A stretch of 64,000 bases of DNA from Paramacrobiotus metropolitanus (Eukaryota > Tardigrada > Eutardigrada > Parachela > Macrobiotidae), in assembly GCF_019649055.1 (NCBI RefSeq), contig NW_026570386.1, positions 1-64,000 of the forward strand, given 5' to 3'. This document shows, piece after piece, positions 3,822 to 49,774 of the stretch; position 1 is the stretch's first letter, and the number at the start of each line of letters is the position of its first letter. The translations under genes and the position numbers were made by a program. The notes under the pieces are model-generated. The model searched no databases. It saw only the letters and a program-made list of their open reading frames with translations, and was not told where the DNA came from.

Positions 3822-6258
3822 TTAGCTGGGTGACAGTGACACTGGAGAACGTCCATCCGACAAATCAAGAGGAGCGACAAAAGACGGCGCCTTGTAGTTG
3901 ATGGCCCGAGCCGGCACTCCGTTCTTGCGTTTACCAATATGACCCTTGACTTCGCGCGGCTTTTCCTCATTGGTGGCCGTATGCGACACTGAGCCGGTTA
4001 CCTTTTTCGGTTTAACCCCGCTGTGCTTCTTGTGGGATTCGCGGATGCTAAACAGGATTCCACCCAATTCTTGGTGGATCATCTCCTTTGTCGGCGGATT
4101 GGGAACATCTTTAAATTCACAGTAGCTATCCACAACACCTGCAACGTATATCTAATTAGTATGCAAATCCTGAGTCAATGCGATTCTAGCTTGCATTGGG
4201 TAGCATATTGTTTTCGAGTACGCGTAGTCGATACTTTATTTCTGGAGCGGTTTACGCACGTAACAAAACCTTGCGACTTACTTTTAACAACGTTCAGTCT
4301 GTCTTGATCCAACGCCTTTTTCCGTTTTTCGACATCCGCGCGCCCCGCTCTGTAGGTACCGAATTGATGAGCTCGTCCGTAGTAAATAACTTTTTCATTG
4401 TCAGTTTCAAGGCTTTTTTCCATGTAGATTGAGTTAAAACCGCATCCTACAAGGAAGCAACTCTTCAACTTTTTTGTAAGCATTTATTCGTATTTATAAT
4501 AAAAGGTGGGAAAAACGCCACGATGAGCAAGCAAAATCATGAAAATTTAATTCCATATGTACTGCAGCAATATTAACAGTCGGAAATACGGAAATGGATA
4601 ACTATCATCACAAAATTAATAACGAATATCAAAATACAAAAAGAAGATATGAAAACCAATCCTAAATATAATAATTTCAAGTACTTCGAAAAGGAACAGT
4701 GAAACCCATGAAGATCATGAAAATAAAGCAACAAAAGAAAAGAAATAGAAAACAGTTATTTTGTTTCCTCAAGTAAACCAGAAAATGGTCTTACCAAAAT
4801 CTCACTTGGGGCACTGGATCCATACCCATCGGCGAAGAAAGTGACGTGCTGGACGAAAACGGCGGTGTGCCTTCTAACGCATAACCTTCACCTTCAGGAG
4901 CCTATCCGAAATGAGAGTCTGATAATTTAAAATCGAAAAACATTAGACTGTTCAAAGCAGACTTTCAAAAACTGACCACTTCCCAGCACAACATTAATGC
5001 GGACAGTCAAACTGGAGGGTCAACTTACGCTGCGCTTTCCTCGAGCACTTTTGAGCACCGTTCCATTCTGGTAAGCCAACATGTTTTCTCGATACTATAA
5101 CACACAAACAACTGCTAAAAACAGGCCGCAAAAGGAGAGAAGCCGGCAGAAATCAACAATCACAAACACAGAACGAACCATCCACCAAGCAAGCAGCCTG
5201 TCGTTTGCAGCCGGATGCATGTTTACCCGCGATGCACCTGGCGCCATACTGACGGAGCTCCATTGAGGAAGGGCGCACTGCTGACCAGATCCACAGTACT
5301 CGGGGATCCTTCGCGTGCCTCACTGGCCGAATCCACGACGCGGAACGGGGCTCCACCACACTCTACAACGATGCCCAAACTACCACTAAATTCAAAAAAA
5401 TTACATACACGGAAAAATTGAGGTAAAAAAAGGAGTCGCATAATGAACAACATATTATATTAAATGCAAGAATTCAAGTTAATTTAAAATTGAAACAAAA
5501 CGAAACGAGAATTAAGTAGGAATCGTACAATTCAATTTTTGACGCTTATGGCAATAAATAACTAATTAACTACCATTTTCAAGTTTGTCACAAAAGGATG
5601 CCAACTGCTTTGCAGACCGTTCAGTTCGTTTTAGCATGTCAAGAATAATGCATTTCCGACATCGTATGACTGACCTCGGCGAACCACATCTCCTTGGTCT
5701 CGTTGTGTGCTGTTTCGTCTCCATGCTTCTGCAGAGGAATCAAGACATCAGCTCGCTGCACGACTGAATAAGAAATCCACAACCCACCGCGCGCATCAAG
5801 CCTAGTTCCACTGCCCAACGATAGCCCTTATCCTCGTATGTTTTCTCATTGGATGACGGGAACAGTCGCGCCGCGGCCAATTCATTTGCCGTTTTTTCTA
5901 CATACAAAATGACAAACCCGTAGAATGGACAGATCGGTCGTTTGTCCCCTGAGATGTGTATCCGGGACTGACCTTCTTCGATCCAGATAACAATACAGTT
6001 GTACAAGCCGTCGCGATAGCGTGCGCGACACACTATCTTCTCGTCAGTGCTGTGCCAGCTTCCACTGGTTCCAGGGCATTCAGAGGCAGAGCTGTTCAAG
6101 TAGGAATACGATTTCGTATTGCTGTTACGATTTCACAGGGAAAATGAGACAGATCTGTCACCTTTGACCATGGATGGACAGCCCTGAGATTCGTGGAAGA
6201 AAATGATGGCACTTCCTAAAGGAGCCGATCTGGCTTTCTTGTGCGGCGGTTCGGGCAT
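3822..6258 (-). CDS. BEN-domain protein BEN-A (tandem paralog 1)
   Basis: BEN domains bind DNA and chromatin partners, often as transcriptional repressors. Exons: 6258-6162 (starts MPEPPHKKARSAP, then GSAIIFFHESQGCP), 6091-5973 (CRARYRDGLYNCIVIWIEE), 5897-5788 (ELAAARLFPSSNEKTYEDKG), 5755-5675 (RADVLIPLQKHGDE), less certain Ser/Gly-rich exons near 5390-5235, 5083-5032 and 4909-4798, then the BEN exons 4446-4282 (STWKKALKLTMKKLFTTDEL...ALDQDRLNVVK) and 4138-3822 (SYCEFKDVPNPPTKEM). The same exon order, phases and residues recur in BEN-B, which supports this model strongly. Two exons (6091-5973 and 4446-4282) are each one base short of the length that keeps the frame; the second break is beside an A-run near 4322-4338. 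The intron 5787-5756 is only 32 nt. A nuclear location is inferred from the family. The function of the shared N-terminal module is unknown. Confidence 0.75.
5756..5787 (-). other. Ultrashort (32-nt) intron in BEN-A
   Basis: The intron starts GTGGGT after the codons for LGLMRA and ends GTGCAG before RADVLIP. The paralog BEN-B has an intron at the same place and phase (17284-16712, 573 nt), and its next exon begins with the related RSELIGV. Reading through would put the downstream exon out of frame. Confidence 0.6.
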
Positions 6259-9200
6259 TGTTTACAAAGTCTACAAACAAACACTGCCTACAACGAGCAG
6301 TAAACTGGATATTTGATAATGCGGAATCGAATAGTAAACAATGACAGTCGAAATCTTAGAACTGGAACACTGGAGCAATGTTTTGTGATAACATTAAATA
6401 CTTTCGAAAAACGAGAATAGTTTGATAAACAGAAACTACTGTAATCGAAAACTGTATGCTCAGAAGTCAAAACTACACATCAGCTCATAACAATTGGAAC
6501 TGCGTCCGGGTTCACTTTGACTTCTGTAAGGCCACTTAGGACAGGCAGATCGGTAAGTAAGGTTACCGACTTCGTGGAGTGAAAAGGTCAGGTGACATGT
6601 TTCGAATTTTCGATTTTACAATTCAGTCAGGTATGCATAAAAGTTGTAAACAGAACACATAGCTAGGACTTGCGACTTGACAGTTGGCGATATGTTTAAA
6701 TTATTACAGTGCAATGCATGTACAAGACACAAAATTGGGAAGTATGCATTTTAATAATTATTATTGTAATTGTATCCGTCCTTGTACATCATTGTACTTG
6801 TACATGGCTTGTACTGGTATATGAAAATATCTATACGATATACTGTAATTGTGCCTTAATGCGTATGACGGGCTTATATAAAATTAGTAAACTTAAAATT
6901 GAACGGCTGTTAGCTTATTCAGTTAATCTCAACGGCTGCCACTTCCGGCAAAAAAATAGTATTTAAACAATAAACTGTTTTGTTGAACATATCTGAACAA
7001 AATTCGAACTACGAGTACCGTATTTATTATGATTGTGCGCTGCTAATAAAGATTGAACATGTAAAATGATTTCCATACACGATGATTATACTGGTATACT
7101 GATAGAAATGTAATGTAAGAAATGTATTGTACGAGGCTAATTAGTAATAGTAGAAAAACATAATAAAAGTATGGGTGAATGATTTTTAAAAAAAGATGCA
7201 AATATTGAGTATAAAATCTACACTTATGCCGACGTTGTGGTGCGGAATTGCGGATAACACATCTAAATCCTTCCACAGAGCAAAAAAGACTTAATCACTG
7301 GTCAGTAGTAAGGATTTACTTATCGTTAGTTTCAAAATAAACGATGCAGAAGCTAACAGACTATCAGCTAAAGAAAGGCTTGCACACAGGTCTGTAAATA
7401 TTTGTAATTTAATGATCAAATCCTGAATTTGAAGCGATTTTAATAATTACGAGTACGGCAAAAAACAAGAAAACTGGCTATCAGAGAAATGTGCACCGAA
7501 AAATTGAGGAAAGATGAATTACTTATTATATACACACAGACACACCAAGGCCAACAGATTTTGATTATTAATAAGTACATTACGTACAATGCAACGAATA
7601 CAATGCTGCAGGTTAAAAAAGTGATTCAAGAGAAGACTCAAAAGAGTGCAACCTACGAAGTTACCGGTAATCGTCTTGGGTTATTACGTGAAATTCTGTA
7701 TTACTCGTATTATGACCAGTTAGTTCAGTACGGCCAGTAACTATCACAACTGTTGTTTTCAATCAGTACTTATTTTTCCTCATTGTGAAATCAGTCAGTA
7801 AAGCATCGTTCAATTTTTTGTGCTGATATCGCAACGCAAATCGATTGCAATAAAAGTCGAAACGTTACACTTTTTTAGAAAACGAGTTTATCGAGGTGCG
7901 GACATTTTCTTGCATTGGTTAAGAACATAGGTTCGTAGCTTCGCAATCAGATTTGATTTCCTGTCTGTACTCTGTAGGTATTTGTCATCAAAAGCACAAA
8001 AAGCCAAACGACCCATCAAAGTACGATATTGACGTACGACGAATGCGCTTATTATTAATACCATTTAATTTTCTTGAAGGACAGTTTATACCTGTCTGAT
8101 AGCTAATTAAACGCATAACATTAATAACATCTCGTGCATCGCTGTGCATAATTCCATCGGAACCCATGGCTACTATTGTTTACTTTAATAAATTTTGGCC
8201 ACCGTTGGGTTGTTGCATTCTACAACGTAATTTGTCGGGAATAATTAGATTTCAATCGTTTGATTATGATTTGCACAAACAAAAAAAAAATTAAACTGCG
8301 TAGAATTAATACAATTTTATAATTTACTACCTTTTAATTGAATTGTGTTTTTTACAACATTTATTTCGGTTTCGTACCTCGTATATATAAGTAAACTACC
8401 GAGAAAGTTTAATCAATATCTTCTGAATTAAAATTAAAAACAGCAACATGTCAATAATACAGTAGTACAAGACTTTTGCTGTTAGGTTTCGGACCATTTA
8501 ATAAGCGTCTTATCTGCATTATTGTACACTATAGACACAGTTTATAATGTACCGGTGGTACGAGTACAATACCAACGAGGGTACTGTAAGTATTATACTG
8601 TAGCATAACGTGTAAATATACGTATTTACTATTTACTACAGGATTTAAAATGTACATACGGTAGTGGCCTAAAATTAAACGCACATACACACGTTTAGAA
8701 TGCTCGATCCAAACAGTTGAAAGTGCAAAATAAATATTTTTTGTAATACAAGGTCTGTTTCAGCGTGTTCGCGGTTAATATATCCAAAATTTTGTCGACA
8801 CTCGACAGTAAAAGCGTAAGCGATAACGCTATGGGACCGAAGACACTTCATATCTATGTATATAAAAGCGTGGAAACCGGCGTTTTTCATGCTTATTATA
8901 ATCTTCGGGTGTCGGTTTGCAGTAAAAAAAATTCTTTGGAAGAACATAATTATGTACGCAGAATACAATACCTCTACCGATACCAGACAAAACAACAGCT
9001 TCATGCGGCAGTACAATACAAGCAGCTTTTACGGTAGCAGCACAATGTCCTCTTAAGTTTATAATCAAGTAATACTGATTGGTTTTGCATAATTATGCCG
9101 ATCGAATACTTAATTACAGGTGGATATAGTGCATACCCATAGCGGACTATAACTGTAGCGAAATAAATTTTGTTGACAAAAAATTTAATCAAAATAGAAA

Positions 9201-18000: not shown

Positions 18001-20808
18001 TAAAGTTAAATGCCGTTACTTGATTGTATCCAGTTATGCAGAGCCTTCTCTCATGGAAGCATTCTGGTCGAAGCTACCAAAAAAACATTACTAATATATC
18101 GCCGAGCTACGGTAAAATTTGTTGCACAGAAAGACAATTTTTCAAAAAAAAAATTTATTCATAAAAAGTACAAATTCATTAAAAATTCAGAGCCACAAAT
18201 TAAAGACGTAAATCTACCATTTTATCAATGATATGCGATATATCACGCGATTAGAATCTGCACAACTTTTTGCATTAACAAAAAATGCCCAAAGGCGATA
18301 GATTTATTTCCGTAGTCGAGCAGTGTTTTGACAGAACGCAAAGGTAACTCTGAAAAGATACACTCGCAGTTTTACAGACTGCCCATATTTAACGATCTAA
18401 CCTCTCGTACAGTCTATGGTATCTGTTCAAAACTTTGAATCCCGTTTCTAACACCAGTATTATATCATGCAGCTGCAAGCCGGGTTATCGTGACTGCTTT
18501 TCTAACAATTATACGCAACAATTCAAGAAAACAGATAGTAAGAACTGTTGGCACTGAAAACATTTCAGGAAAACTTAGCACACGCTTTCGGCATTTTCTG
18601 GCATCCTATTTCTAAAAGTAATTTAAAACACAATGAACAGTTGTATTACATTCATATGCAAGAGAAATGTGGTGGTGTACAGAAAAAATTATAGCCATTT
18701 AACGCCCAAGCGTTAAATGACGTTAACGCAGAGCGAGCTCACGTGTCTTAGCAACCATGGTTGCATCCTTCAGAATGCCAGGGCACTTTGCCACGTACAC
18801 GCAGTTTGCCAGAAAAATTCGCAAATTTTAAATCGCAAACCTTAAAGGACCTTATTTATCATGCCGCGTAAAAGGCGCAACGTCTTAGAAGTTCAGTGTC
18901 GGAACCAGTAGAAATGGCATCTCCAGCACGTAAATCAATAGAGGGAAACGCCCAACCCAGCTTGATTCACTGACCGAATCCATCTCGAATCTACAAAGCC
19001 AGATGACCGCATTAATGGACAAGCAACGGGTGGTGGCCCCATGCCCCATGTTCAACAGTTTTTTCCTCCTTTAGTTGATCTGTGGGCACTAATACCCGTG
19101 AACTCACCCGCCCGTCCACCAGCATACATGGCTCTACCTGCAATGGAGAATTCGATCCTGAAGACGCTCTCAGATCGGCGAGCATTCGTTCATCTTAACA
19201 AACTGCAGCCAAACAATCGCGATTTTGACACATCTAATGAACGGACGGTATTTGTGTTGACGCTGAGGAAAGTTGGTTCCTCTGTTGCTCCACCCGCTCG
19301 TCGAAAAATTGAAAGTTTCCTGTCGTGGTTGGAGGCGTTTCTGCTCTTCGCTCGTTTCAGAACGTTTTATCATTCTGATTTAGCCGGATGTTTTTTCGCA
19401 TATATTGAGATAATCCGTGGTTTGTCCGTATCGCGCCCATTGTTTATCTGGCTTGAATACGATCGCCGTTTCCGGGAGAAAATGACCTTCCCAGATGTAG
19501 CTGAGTTGGCCTGGTTTTCTGAAGATTCTGCAATTATGGCTGATGTGGTGCGCTCTGTACCTTTAAGCGATAACTTAGCCAGTTGTTAGCCACCGCTGTT
19601 CATGCATCCACAACTCCTGCAACTTCCGGAATTCTTCGGTTGCTTTATATGCAAGGATCCTTTTCACTACGCCAACCTTTGCCCACAGCGCGCCGGGGTG
19701 AGCCCTACTGGTTCCGGCAGCCCTACCATTCCCAGCCTGAGCACTTCTTCTACACAAAGCCTCGCAACTCCGCAGCAAGTTCGCGCAGTCCTCGCCCTGT
19801 TATCTGTCGAGACTATAATAATGGCCGTTGTGCAACGCCCTGCCCGCACCACCGGATACACGTCTGCGAGCAGTGTTACGATACAACACACATTCGTGGT
19901 TTTCATCAAATGAATTCTGTCTAGATTCTTGTTCGTTGCGCTTTCTTTATCGAGTTTGCAATTATTTCTCAAATTTTTTTTTTTGCTAAATTTAATTATT
20001 AACCCAATTTTTTCTTTGCAGTCCTCCTGTGTGCCTCCGCGCGGTTGGGGTTGCCTGTCGGTTTGGGGTGTCCGGCGCGGCTTGTATCATAACCTGGTGA
20101 CGACGGCACCCTTCAGCGTGTCGTCTGGACATCGCTCAGGCTGATCACTTGCCCCGGCATCCTCAGGCGGCAACTTTCGGTCGTGAGCGAGCTCATAAGC
20201 AATTAAAAGCCATTTAACGCCCAAGCGTTAAATGACGTTAACGCAGAGCGAGCTCACGTGTCTTGGCAACCATGGTTGCATCCTTCAGAATTCTTCCAGG
20301 GCCACTTTGCCACGTACACGCAGTTTCACGGCCAGAAAATTCGCAACCTCCCGCCCGCCCGTTTATGCGCATTTATTGTATCTCAACGTTGTTCGGTGTT
20401 TTATCTCGTGTTTTCTTTCTCATACTGCTTGTACCAATTCGATTTCAATAAAGGTGTCCGGCGCGGCTTGTATCATAACCTGGGTGACCGACGGCACCCT
20501 TCAGCGTGTCGTCTGGACATCGCTCAGGCTGATCACTTGCCCCGGCATCCTCAGGCGGCAACTTTCGGTCGTGAGCGAGCTCATAAGCGTTAACGAAATT
20601 TTAAATGAATAATTTTGCAGGTTATAGTATAACAGAAACAACACCTTTGTAATTGAGATATTAATTAATAAATTTATAAGTCGTAATGCGAACACGAATC
20701 CATACCTTTAACCGATGGAGGACATCCTTGTGCTTCATGCCAGTAAATTATAGCACTTCCGGAATATCCCAAATGGGTAACTTGACGTTTCAGAAAATGC
20801 GCAGCCAT
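15016..20808 (-). CDS. BEN-domain protein BEN-B (tandem paralog 3)
   Basis: Exons: 20808-20706 (starts MAAHFLKRQ, then GSAIIYWHEAQGCPPSVKG), 17895-17776 (ALPLHDIESLEPG, CNARYKDQIYKCVVLWIEE), 17403-17285 (ELTVARLLPSSNERIFEEKG), 16711-16652 (RSELIGVKAELVEGPDAREQ), an acidic exon near 16554-16515 (unsure phase), 16306-16010 (YSGELELNFNGIDHDEP, Ser-rich), 15798-15703 (DDLDDDMDDFDDMPS), and the BEN domain in 15647-15497 (TTWTKALRCAMRELFTEDEL...LDPHRLAVAK) and 15230-15016 (DLLAKYCSSKDVPQPSRRHV). Phases of all the well-defined exons agree without frame breaks. The WTKALRxxMRELFTEDELA block and LDPxxL block are BEN hallmarks. The N-terminal module up to PSSNE is shared with BEN-A and is not a domain I can name; the ARYxDxxYxCxVxWIEE segment is Tudor-like in flavour only. 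Intron 1 (20705-17896) carries a retroelement. Confidence 0.8.
18694..18826 (+). repeat. Split repeat A1 of the retroelement
   Basis: Near-identical to 20209-20348, from the CATTTAACGC hairpin through CAACCATGGTTGCATCC to AAAATTCGCAA. It has small deletions relative to A2 around 18776-18812. Confidence 0.8.
19041..19922 (+). pseudogene. gag-like region of the retroelement, frame-shifted
   Basis: The first frame (19041-19589, 182 codons) has SWLEAFLLFARFRTFYHSD followed by FIWLEYDRRFREK, an arrangement of W...Y and W.xYDxxFR blocks that I associate with capsid-like ORFs of tyrosine-recombinase retroelements (recollection, not a search). A second frame (up to 19922) continues with a Cys/His cluster, CRDYNNGRC...CPHHRIHVCEQC...H. 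Another frame over 19640-19690 shows a CCHC-type C-x2-C-x4-H-x4-C. The capsid and zinc frames are not continuous, so at least one frameshift separates them. No active enzyme is encoded. Function is only inferred: RNA or DNA binding of the element. Confidence 0.5.
20067..20200 (+). repeat. Split repeat B1 of the retroelement
   Basis: Matches 20453-20588 along its length, from GGTGTCCGGCGCGGCTTG to GTGAGCGAGCTCATAAGC, with a few single-base differences. Confidence 0.8.
20209..20348 (+). repeat. Split repeat A2 of the retroelement
   Basis: Second copy of the A block, lying between B1 and B2. It starts eight bases after B1 ends and begins with the same 10-bp inverted repeat as A1. Confidence 0.8.
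20453..20588 (+). repeat. Split repeat B2 of the retroelement
   Basis: Second copy of the B block and right end of the element. It is followed by GTTAACG; its reverse complement (CGTTAACGC...) resembles the CGTTAACGC found just inside A1, so the two ends are partly inverted copies. Confidence 0.8.
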
Positions 20809-41612: not shown

Positions 41613-44600
41613 ATGGATCCACTCGAGCCTAAAACATTTTCATATTCTAAACCTGGAAAATCTAATTACGGTGCGATGTACATGTCAAGCCGAGGTGGAC
41701 TTCCGCTTTGTGACGCACAAATAACGGCAGGATCGTCACTACGACAGGTACATAAATTAATATTACAGATGGACCGGCATCATGATGTGGGTCCAAAAGC
41801 CTTTTTCAGAATGATCGTTTGAGACCAAAACTGAATAAGGCTGTGCTGTGCCTCTTACTTAATTCTCAGGGCTGAGTTAAGCGGATTTGCGCCGGCGTCA
41901 TTTGTAATACAAACCGGATAATTTATTACCCGAAAAGGATACCAAAAATTTTTTCGTCTCAGTCGTTACTGAAACTGCAGCGAGCTGATATTAAAGCAGC
42001 TGTTAGTCGCGATTAGAAAGCGGCTGTTTTCACAACAAAAAAGGGTTCCAAATTCTGATACAATTCGCATGCGGGGTTCCAATTTGTGATCCGATACCGT
42101 GCACAGACCCGAATGAGCGGTATTCGTTTTGCATGCGATCTGGTGTTGAAAAATCGAGATTTTTGGAACCAGGGATCAGTCAGACGCATGCTGATTATAT
42201 ATATACTGTATATACAAAAGATCACGTGTTATTAAACGCTTTCACAGTATTTCTGAAGTTTTTTGCATATACATATAGTTTGATACTTCGCTTGGAAAAA
42301 CCTTAAAGCTGACTCACTTTTACTTTCGATTGCGCGGTAGGTGATGGCAGTTGTGCGCAATGTCCGATTGTACATGCGCGCAATGCTTCAGCCTGGAATC
42401 GACGAGAAGTTTAATTATGAAAACACTGTGAAATGTAAACTCATGATCTTATCGCTGTTCATTAACGTTTATTATTGTATAGAGTAGGGAATAATACTTT
42501 GTCGATATTGTACAATGTTTCTGTAGCAAACAAAAATGCTCTCTGGTCTTCTACAGCGGGAAGTTCTAAGTTGATCAGTTGGTGGGTTACCTCATAAATG
42601 TGTGTGTTGTTGGGCAGGTTACAGCCGGACAAACCTTTAACGGTGAGTCAAGTGATCATAAACGAAAAATAAGCATTTATTATAACTATGATGCCCCACT
42701 TCTGCGATTGTTACATTTGTCGGTTTACTCGGTTATCGCTTTGCCGCAGTGGGACCGCGTTACACGAATTTGCAGTGCATCGGCGAAGGATCATACGGTA
42801 TGGTTGTATCCGCTGTCGACACCCTAAGTCGTGATCGGGACAATGCCAGAGTGGCAATAAAAAAGATTTCTACCTTGGAACACCCGATCAAGTGCCAGCG
42901 GACACTGCGGGAAATTAAAATTCTTAACCGTCTCAAACATGAGAACATCATCGACATTAAAGACATTATACCCCCTCCCACGATGGACCAGATGCAGGAA
43001 GTGTACATTGTTCAGACACTGATGGAGACCGATCTGGAAAAATTACTGAAAAGAGACCGTCTTCGGCAGGATTACATTTCCGCTCTTTTATATCAAACCC
43101 TGCGCGGACTGAAATATATTCATTCGGCTAATGTATTGCATCGCGATTTGAAGCCGAGCAATCTTCTGTTGAATGTAGAAGCGTGCGATCTGAAGGTAAA
43201 TACTTGCGCAAAATTACTAACTGTAATATATATATGGTAATCATCTAATTTTTAAAAAAGTATATGCATATATATTGTGTTTGACTGGCTTCTGTGTAGC
43301 TGGAATTAATCGTAAATACCAATATATTTTTCCTGCAAAACTTACAAGTTACAACACACATTTGCAGGCTGCAACAAACTCGCAGTAAACAACTGCAGCT
43401 AACTGTGAGTGTTTTTCCCAGATTTGTGATTTTGGTTGGGCTCGGGTGGATCCCACACTCGAGCGTGGCGGCGTTTTGACAGAATATGTTGGGGCCAGAT
43501 GGTACAGAGCGCCGGAAACGATGTTGAATTCTCGAGGTTACACCAAAGCGAGTACGTAAATTAATTAATGTGGTTGTCCCAACTTGTCGGCATCCAATTC
43601 TGTTTCCGATACGAATGGCTTATTTCGTTACATTAGTTAATGCGCCGGTCATTTTGCTTTTTAGTTGACATCTGGTCAATGGGATGCATTTTTGCGGAAA
43701 TGATATCCAGTCGCCCAATTTTTCCTGGAAAGCATTGTAAATGATATTCAGTAGAGAAAATCTTTAAGATTGTATCAGTAAAAATCTACAATCTGTATTT
43801 ATCTCGTATTATACACATATTCATTTCACATTGGAAGCATGACTGCCTTGTACAGATCTGGACCAGCTCAACCACATACTGAACACAATCGGTTCTCCTT
43901 CCGCAGAAGATCTGGAGACTATCCATAACGATCGAGTTAGTGCTATCGTAATTTAAGCTTGAATCTGTTGTAATTGACTACTATTGAATTTATTGTAATT
44001 TGCTACTGGGTACTTGAATCTTGAACCATACCATCAGTACTTACTGAAATTTCAGGCTCGATCGTATATCAGGAGTCTGCCACCAAGAAGGCGACAAGCG
44101 TGGACCAAGCTTTATCCTAACGTCGCCTCTACAGGTATTCTGAGCTAGAGTAGGCCTTTTTTGGCACATCACTTGACAGCTTTCCCTGAATAAGGAAGGA
44201 ATCAATGGAACTGTAATATCTTGGCGCGAAACAGATTACCCAATTACCTGTTATCTTATAATTTCCAGCGCTTGACCTGTTGGATAAAATGCTGACTTTC
44301 AGTCCGGCAAACAGGATTCCGGCGGAAGAAGCTCTGGCGCATCCCTTTGTGGGTCCGTGGAGAGCCCAGATGAGGTACCTGTATTGGTCGTCCCATCTTA
44401 TTCTTATTGTCAAATCTCGATAAAGGTGTCATCCTGGAATTCCTCTAACGCATCCCTAGTCCATATTTACAAGTTGTAAGTTACAACTGATGGAACTATT
44501 TGTGATCCAAGGGGTGAACCGGTGGCGGAAGAACCATTTACCATTGAAATGGAACTGGATGACCTGCCAAAAGAGCGACTCAAGGAAATGATTTGGGATG

Positions 44601-46737: not shown

Positions 46738-49774
<3,037 letters not shown>

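Follow-up and report, generated by a model that had tools for sequence, protein, structure and literature searches.

A probable gag-only Ngaro-type retrotransposon with split direct repeats in Paramacrobiotus metropolitanus and its relatives in the same genome

Parasites that encode only gag are already known among retrotransposons with long terminal repeats (LTRs), and the TR-GAG elements of plants carry gag alone between LTR ends. TRIM and LARD elements are LTR-flanked by definition. A section of PMC12477816 describes gag-only Copia families in Ectocarpus. In the order DIRS, Ngaro-like retrotransposons have split direct repeats arranged A1 ... B1-A2-B2 (sections of PMC9210276 and PMC6681497), and SIRE of Trypanosoma cruzi represents the A2-B2 unit of VIPER (a section of PMC6681497). 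Here a 64,000-nucleotide stretch of the tardigrade Paramacrobiotus metropolitanus (assembly GCF_019649055.1, contig NW_026570386.1, positions 1 to 64,000; hereafter the window) was analyzed. It contains a 1.9 kb element which is very probably a non-autonomous member of the Ngaro-type tyrosine-recombinase retrotransposons, with split direct repeats at its ends and gag as the sole remaining gene. The element has the corresponding anatomy, its gag and ends are homologous to those of intact gag-reverse transcriptase (RT)-recombinase elements, several independent insertions were observed, and no RT or recombinase was detectable.

The window element resembles Ngaro in its split direct repeats and Gag homology, in same-genome relatives with the order gag, RT and recombinase, and in related gag-only copies that insert without target duplication. 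It differs in having no detectable RT or recombinase and in its length (1.9 kb versus about 4.5 kb for the intact autonomous elements on contigs C13 and C37). Split direct repeats are also found in PAT. PAT elements carry a methyltransferase domain. Ngaro and Viper are listed without this domain in a section of PMC3266345. No methyltransferase was found over the cut-off in the six proteins scanned against Pfam (sub-threshold Methyltransf_35 matches lie within Gag, with E 0.034 in C37 and E 0.28 in the window), and Ngaro therefore fits better than PAT; the same result speaks against a DIRS1-like element. The original prediction of a gag-only PAT/Ngaro-like element that depends on a partner in trans was borne out by the copies in the same genome, with this preference for Ngaro. 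Like SIRE, the relatives C22, C26 and C18 are non-coding derivatives of a split-direct-repeat element with the same A-B make-up, whereas the window element retains A1, gag and B1. It is similar to TR-GAG and the Ectocarpus Copia families in that gag alone is kept and RT and integration would come from a partner. Those elements have LTR ends and a DDE integrase; the window element has split direct repeats and no LTR pair, and a tyrosine recombinase would integrate it. The likeness to TRIM and LARD, as short or non-coding derivatives moved in trans, is closest for C17, C169 and C42, which work in this way and belong to a second gag-only clan with a different Gag (clan 2; the window element belongs to clan 1).

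The element occupies positions 18693-20593 of the forward (+) strand, including the right junction core, and all parts are on this strand in the order A1 - gag - B1 - A2 - B2. A1 (18693-18824) and A2 (20208-20346) share 92.1 % identity over 140 columns with 2 mismatches and 4 gap openings, and B1 (20067-20200) and B2 (20453-20588) share 98.5 % over 136 columns with 0 mismatches and 2 gap openings, so the predicted repeat layout was recovered as described. The gag-like region (18861-19924) has an interrupted frame and is followed by an AT-rich linker to B1 (19925-20066). The B1/A2 junction lies at 20201-20207, a segment retained in the A-B solo units C22 and C26 separates A2 from B2 (20347-20452), and the right junction core GTTAA follows B2 (20589-20593). 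When a masked self-BLAST of the window was searched for direct repeats of at least 60 bp, with E up to 1e-10 and less than 5 kb apart, only one other pair (kinase gene copies) qualified; the order of the A and B repeats is therefore not due to chance. The 10-bp hairpin that had been predicted to head each A repeat is present at 18696-18719 and 20211-20234. Across 10 A-heads, 97.8 % of the cells of the 9 pairs scored were paired, with a both-side change in one pair. The hairpin is conserved, yet covariation gives no proof of pairing, as the score was reached by 64 of 500 shuffles. An Rfam scan of the window element returned no match.

The genome searched consists of 169.8 Mb in 533 contigs, of which C166 is the window contig. 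Full-length relatives carrying RT and tyrosine recombinase between A1 and B1, for which the original prediction had proposed a search, were found on C13 and C37. In C13 (locus L018), A1/A2 (170 bp) and B1/B2 (145 bp) are each 100 % identical, and the sequence between the repeats has open frames for gag, RT (Pfam RVT_1, 2.1e-11) and recombinase (Phage_integrase, 2.5e-5, with a score under the curated cut-off). C37 (L026) has the same layout with 99.4 % identical repeats; its RT and the RT of C13 share 66 % identity, and its recombinase frame matches Phage_integrase (0.034) and Phage_int_SAM_1 (0.0018), both under the cut-off. RT-bearing Ngaro-type elements are numerous in this genome, since at least 76 matches, from 976 candidates, were obtained in an RT search.

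The window element and these autonomous elements have in common Gag (45-50 % amino acid identity), the A-head hairpin and the core GTTAA. C13 Gag matches the window gag region at 45 % over query 73-302 (E 2.2e-60) and at 50 % over query 312-361 (E 1.6e-13), and it matches the gag of C16 at 50 % (query 182-361) and 38 % (query 19-176). The C16 gag is 59 % identical to C37 Gag at the amino acid level. Pfam gave no match over the cut-off for the gag pieces, and thus the name Gag is based on the position in intact relatives and on a Cys/His-rich finger recognized by eye. RT and recombinase proteins gave no match to the window element (tblastn, E 1e-4). We also considered the linker or spacer as a decayed RT or recombinase gene and rejected this, as the sole such matches up to E 1 were at E 0.33 (window linker, to RT) and 0.79 (C169 body). 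Having neither enzyme, the window element needs a partner.

A whole-element search identified one other full-length copy, C16:649914-651821, with 96 % identity. Both of its repeat pairs are identical (A1/A2, 145/145 bp; B1/B2, 142/142 bp). C22, C26 and C18 are reduced to A-B units, as expected of A1 x A2 recombination. The flanks (about 1-2 kb per side) of C166, C16, C22, C26, C18 and C79 showed no mutual similarity at E 0.01, so these six copies represent separate insertions. This bears on the possibility that the window element is the wreck of one autonomous Ngaro copy, formed by internal deletion after insertion, and that segmental duplication produced the two full copies. Internal deletions are common, and gag is broken in both full copies. 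However, the flanks of both full copies and of four relatives are mutually dissimilar, C16 has its own 100 % repeat pairs, and five more clan-1 loci have gag adjoining B1 with no RT between, all seven loci falling in a single well-supported branch (below); such a wreck is very unlikely. The window copy and C16 differ by 21 substitutions over 1883 aligned positions, by 24 small deletions in the window copy (one at the edge) and by 3 in C16, and 10 of the 15 single-base deletions of the window copy are within runs of two or more. This ratio of deletions to substitutions is unusual for natural decay, and assembly error may account for part of it, for which reason no conclusion is drawn on the coding state of the window copy.

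The B1/A2 junction reads AAGC-GTTAA-(4 nt)-ATTTAA in C16, C47, C4, C13 and C37, and its core in these five is the same GTTAA as at the right end. The window copy has an altered junction (AAGC-AATTAAA); its right end is still GTTAA. Where the B end adjoins flanking DNA (nine loci), GTTAA comes next in eight and GTTGA in one. The four bases that precede the A end at flanking DNA, in 11 loci without RT, are TTAA in seven, and TTAT (window), TTAC, CTTA and GTAA in one each. A genome-wide search with the junction pattern gave 18 matches, compared with 1 for the reversed control.

Two empty sites were found. In C179, the nested clan-2 element sits in A1 of another element whose uninterrupted A2 provides the empty site ACGGAAAACATCC; the left junction is ACGGAA-TGGATTCC and the right junction GTAATGGAA-AATATCC, with one flank base differing. 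In C4, an uninterrupted duplicate of the target lies in the left flank (TTTCGTTAAATCATATAAAT vs TTTCGTTAAAT-element-CATATAAAT). Both sites fit a single recombination at a short common core with no target duplication. The lack of target duplication, which had been proposed as a check, was therefore observed for two clan-2 gag-only copies, and no empty site was found for the window copy. An inverted CGTTAACGC had also been reported at both ends of the window element. This sequence is partly element but is not supported as a paired element feature; its last bases are target sequence, because B2 ends in AAGC and is followed by the core GTTAA and then by bases that differ between copies.

Two further observations were made at these loci. 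L013 (G000:C179:162500-169500) is a triple nesting, in which a gag-only element lies in A1 of a second gag-only element and this outer element is in turn flanked by the RT and recombinase matches of another tyrosine-recombinase element. The flanks of C37 (L026, G000:C37:8500-15500; 1197-1239 and 5769-5812) contain a repeat of about 43 bp beginning exactly at the B end. At first sight a long target duplication, it is perhaps an older tandem target duplication or an unusual insertion product.

If the element were no retroelement but a Crypton-like DNA transposon that has subterminal repeats and is mobilized as DNA by a tyrosine recombinase, the same kind of junction would result. The A-B units C22, C26 and C18 do not decide this question. 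However, the A1..B1-A2-B2 order with identical pairs would be best explained by a copying step, and the gag homologue adjoins RT in intact relatives, which makes a DNA transposon extremely improbable. The same A-B units stand alone like solo LTRs, as they would if A1-A2 and B1-B2 were ordinary LTRs belonging to an LTR element in solo or nested form. Against this, no unit repeat flanks both ends (the left end is A alone), the core is present and target duplication absent at the two clan-2 empty sites, and no copy was seen that has an A-B unit at each end and a 4-6 bp duplication; the chance that these are ordinary LTRs is close to negligible. For a Ngaro-type element, we propose that the RNA would span A1 to B2 and would be packaged in Gag, either its own or that of a relative. 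The RT of an autonomous relative would copy this RNA, and the repeated A and B segments would let the complementary DNA close into a circle with a B|A junction. The tyrosine recombinase of the relative would then join the junction core GTTAA to a TTAA-like target without target duplication.

There is good evidence that the clan-1 gag-only elements belong to an old lineage. The alignment of C79, C253 and C51 to the window element runs without a break from gag into B1. In six of the seven clan-1 gag-only loci (window, C16, C79, C253, C51 and C1), RT and recombinase proteins gave no match (tblastn, E 1e-4), and in the seventh (C179) such matches lie only outside the ends of the outer element. When a Gag protein tree was drawn, the seven gag-only rows formed one side of a 98/98 branch, opposite 13 autonomous rows; L031, L032 and L034 (type unclear; L032 with an RT trace) and L030 (Gag 97 % identical to C13) were left out. 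The B repeat had 32 matches in the assembly. Twenty of these have at least 80 % identity, all in places without known RT (18 in loci that were read; the other two, C21 and C47:363k, in sequence that was not fetched), whereas the 12 matches in RT-bearing elements have 73-75 % identity. The gag-only lineage thus has its own ends.

Clan 2 includes the element nested in C179, which has the same A/B order and a different Gag. A DNA search with this element found two further near-full copies (C1:382k, 89 %; C61, 88 %) and ten more distant relatives of its gag part (70-76 %). Both repeat pairs were present in eight of the nine clan-2 loci fetched and neither in C9. The gag-only elements of this clan are about 2.4 kb long, and in C148 and C1:1006k the gag frame runs uninterrupted for 376 amino acids, with no RT or recombinase match in these loci. 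An autonomous relative, C63, has repeats of this kind, encodes RT and recombinase, and carries a Gag of 60 % amino acid identity. In the gag-only elements, gag and B1 are separated by a 3' spacer of about 600 bp, which is 71-78 % identical over most of its 3' part between the C148 and C179 groups; in the C4/C233/C109 group it is alignable only as pieces of about 80-160 bp. The spacer was not found in C63, whose recombinase frame stops some 40 bp short of B1. When the C148 spacer was used as the query, five places were recovered, all gag-only, and the C4/C233/C109 group was missed. None of the 16 spacer-bearing places (11 fetched) is within 5 kb of an RT match among those listed. There is fair evidence that the gag-only form is recurrent in this genome. 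The clan-2 elements L035-L041 have B1/B2 pairs of only 91-93 % identity (115-128 bp aligned), including those elements whose A1/A2 pairs reach 98.7-100 %. The B core of L058, 97 bp long, is 100 % identical, and the true clan-2 B is therefore perhaps shorter than the aligned stretch.

Gag-less elements were also observed. C17 and C169 share 99.58 % identity over 2130 bp, with A pairs of 98-100 % and dissimilar flanks; they carry the spacer and all four repeats but only traces of gag (E 0.13 and 0.057). C42 is a third gag-less clan-2 element (gag trace, E 0.032), and the clan-1 element C47 (1.53 kb, repeats 100 % identical) gave no gag match. With gag unusable or absent, these elements move or moved recently on proteins of others, so Gag is not strictly required in cis.

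Selection on gag was estimated from nonsynonymous (dN) and synonymous (dS) divergence; the p-values are rough, as sites were treated as independent. Between the three gag-only sublineages of clan 2, dN is 0.16-0.27 and dS 0.9-1.3, with a ratio of 0.15-0.22 when the decayed copies L039 and L042 are left out (up to 0.28 with L039 and 0.41-0.52 with L042). Within sublineages, ratios to decayed copies are 0.7-0.8. C148 and C9 differ at 145.7 of 264.0 synonymous and 131.3 of 864.0 nonsynonymous sites (p 2e-36), and two close pairs in this clan also show selection (C9-C233, p 0.0045; C1:382k-C61, p 7e-6). In clan 1, C16 and the outer C179 gag differ at 91.5 of 100.7 synonymous and 87.5 of 328.3 nonsynonymous sites (p 3e-32), and further pairs gave p 6e-5 (C16-C253), 2e-5 (C16-C51) and 0.015 (C253-C51). 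These comparisons show the pattern expected if selection maintained gag during the mobility of the lineage and copies decayed once inserted. The gag-only elements would then form an old and diversified lineage in which purifying selection acted on gag over much of its history, and bringing its own Gag was probably of benefit to the element. This holds provided that the selected period postdates the loss of RT and recombinase, a timing supported in clan 1 by the single gag-only branch.

On this basis, we tentatively suggest, as a near-even possibility, that RT and recombinase were lost long ago in at least two Gag clans, in which purifying selection maintained gag (in clan 1 for long enough to bring synonymous sites near saturation) and which persist as parasites with their own Gag and borrowed RT and recombinase. 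Gag-less and A-B-only elements would use the same helpers, and the whole would form a standing class. Several observations weigh against the main reading of a Ngaro-type element from an old gag-only lineage that borrows its enzymes. The window gag frame is broken in several places and the C16 gag by a private 22-nt deletion, which leaves no uninterrupted gag in the clan-1 full copies. The closest clan-1 pairs look neutral (C16-window, p 0.45; C179 outer-C1:3352k, p 0.65), C16-C79 reached p 0.074, and the close clan-2 pair C148-C1:1006k has no selection signal (p 0.51). Two rows of the clan-1 tree (C253 and C51) are long, and three others (C79, C1 and C179) are less than half filled. Among the 32 B-repeat matches there is no autonomous element with matching ends; the partner has thus diverged or is missing. 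The best clan-2 Gag trees split the gag-only rows, with a single clade in 6 % and 36 % of bootstrap trees, which leaves room for repeated loss of RT and recombinase in this clan.

The gag-only form may accordingly have arisen repeatedly, with the apparent selection on gag dating from lineages that were still autonomous. This is in line with the position of the autonomous clade among gag-only rows in the clan-2 trees (92/95 in the first; an open fork in the second, from which the long, gappy or unclear L039, L042, L047 and L056 were left out) and with several close gag-only pairs that look neutral. The spacer argument is also weak for C4/C233/C109, given its short alignable pieces and its absence from the results of the C148-spacer search. 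However, a single gag-only clade in clan 2 was not rejected (p-AU of the approximately unbiased test, 0.257, for the second tree, with 36 % bootstrap), clan 1 requires only one change, and the clan-2 spacer is common to sublineages, missing from the autonomous C63 and in none of the 16 places near a listed RT match. We regard repeated origin as a real but somewhat doubtful alternative to the standing class of gag-only parasites.

If such a class exists, the solution known from LTR retrotransposons would have a counterpart in the tyrosine-recombinase order, present in two Gag clans together with signs of selection, and Gag in cis would be worth keeping even though all the enzymes are borrowed. 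Within a clan, the gag-only, gag-less and A-B-only elements have common termini, and a single part changes from one form to the next. They provide a natural test set for the role of Gag and for which parts of the ends are recognized by recombinase and RT in trans. The suggestion that the element may be undescribed fits our literature searches, in which no description of gag-only split-direct-repeat elements was found among open-licence papers; an unpublished entry, or one in a repeat database only, is quite possible.

The element had been placed in an intron of a BEN gene. This was not confirmed, as none of the 12 neighbouring open reading frames scanned had a Pfam BEN match, although a BEN exon may lie outside the scanned frames. 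A reductase-like frame (Pyr_redox_2, 3.9e-6) is present at 26.1-26.5 kb of the window. The kinase gene repeat in the window (42627-43197 vs 47311-47864; 81 % over 572 columns) is direct and codes for the N-terminal part of two MAP kinases, named ERK-like by eye. An LTR-type gag-only element also occurs in this genome: in L010 (G000:C253:14500-23500), direct repeats of 300 bp with 99.7 % identity at 7232-8956 surround a single Copia-type Gag frame of 329 amino acids (Retrotran_gag_2, 4.1e-20).

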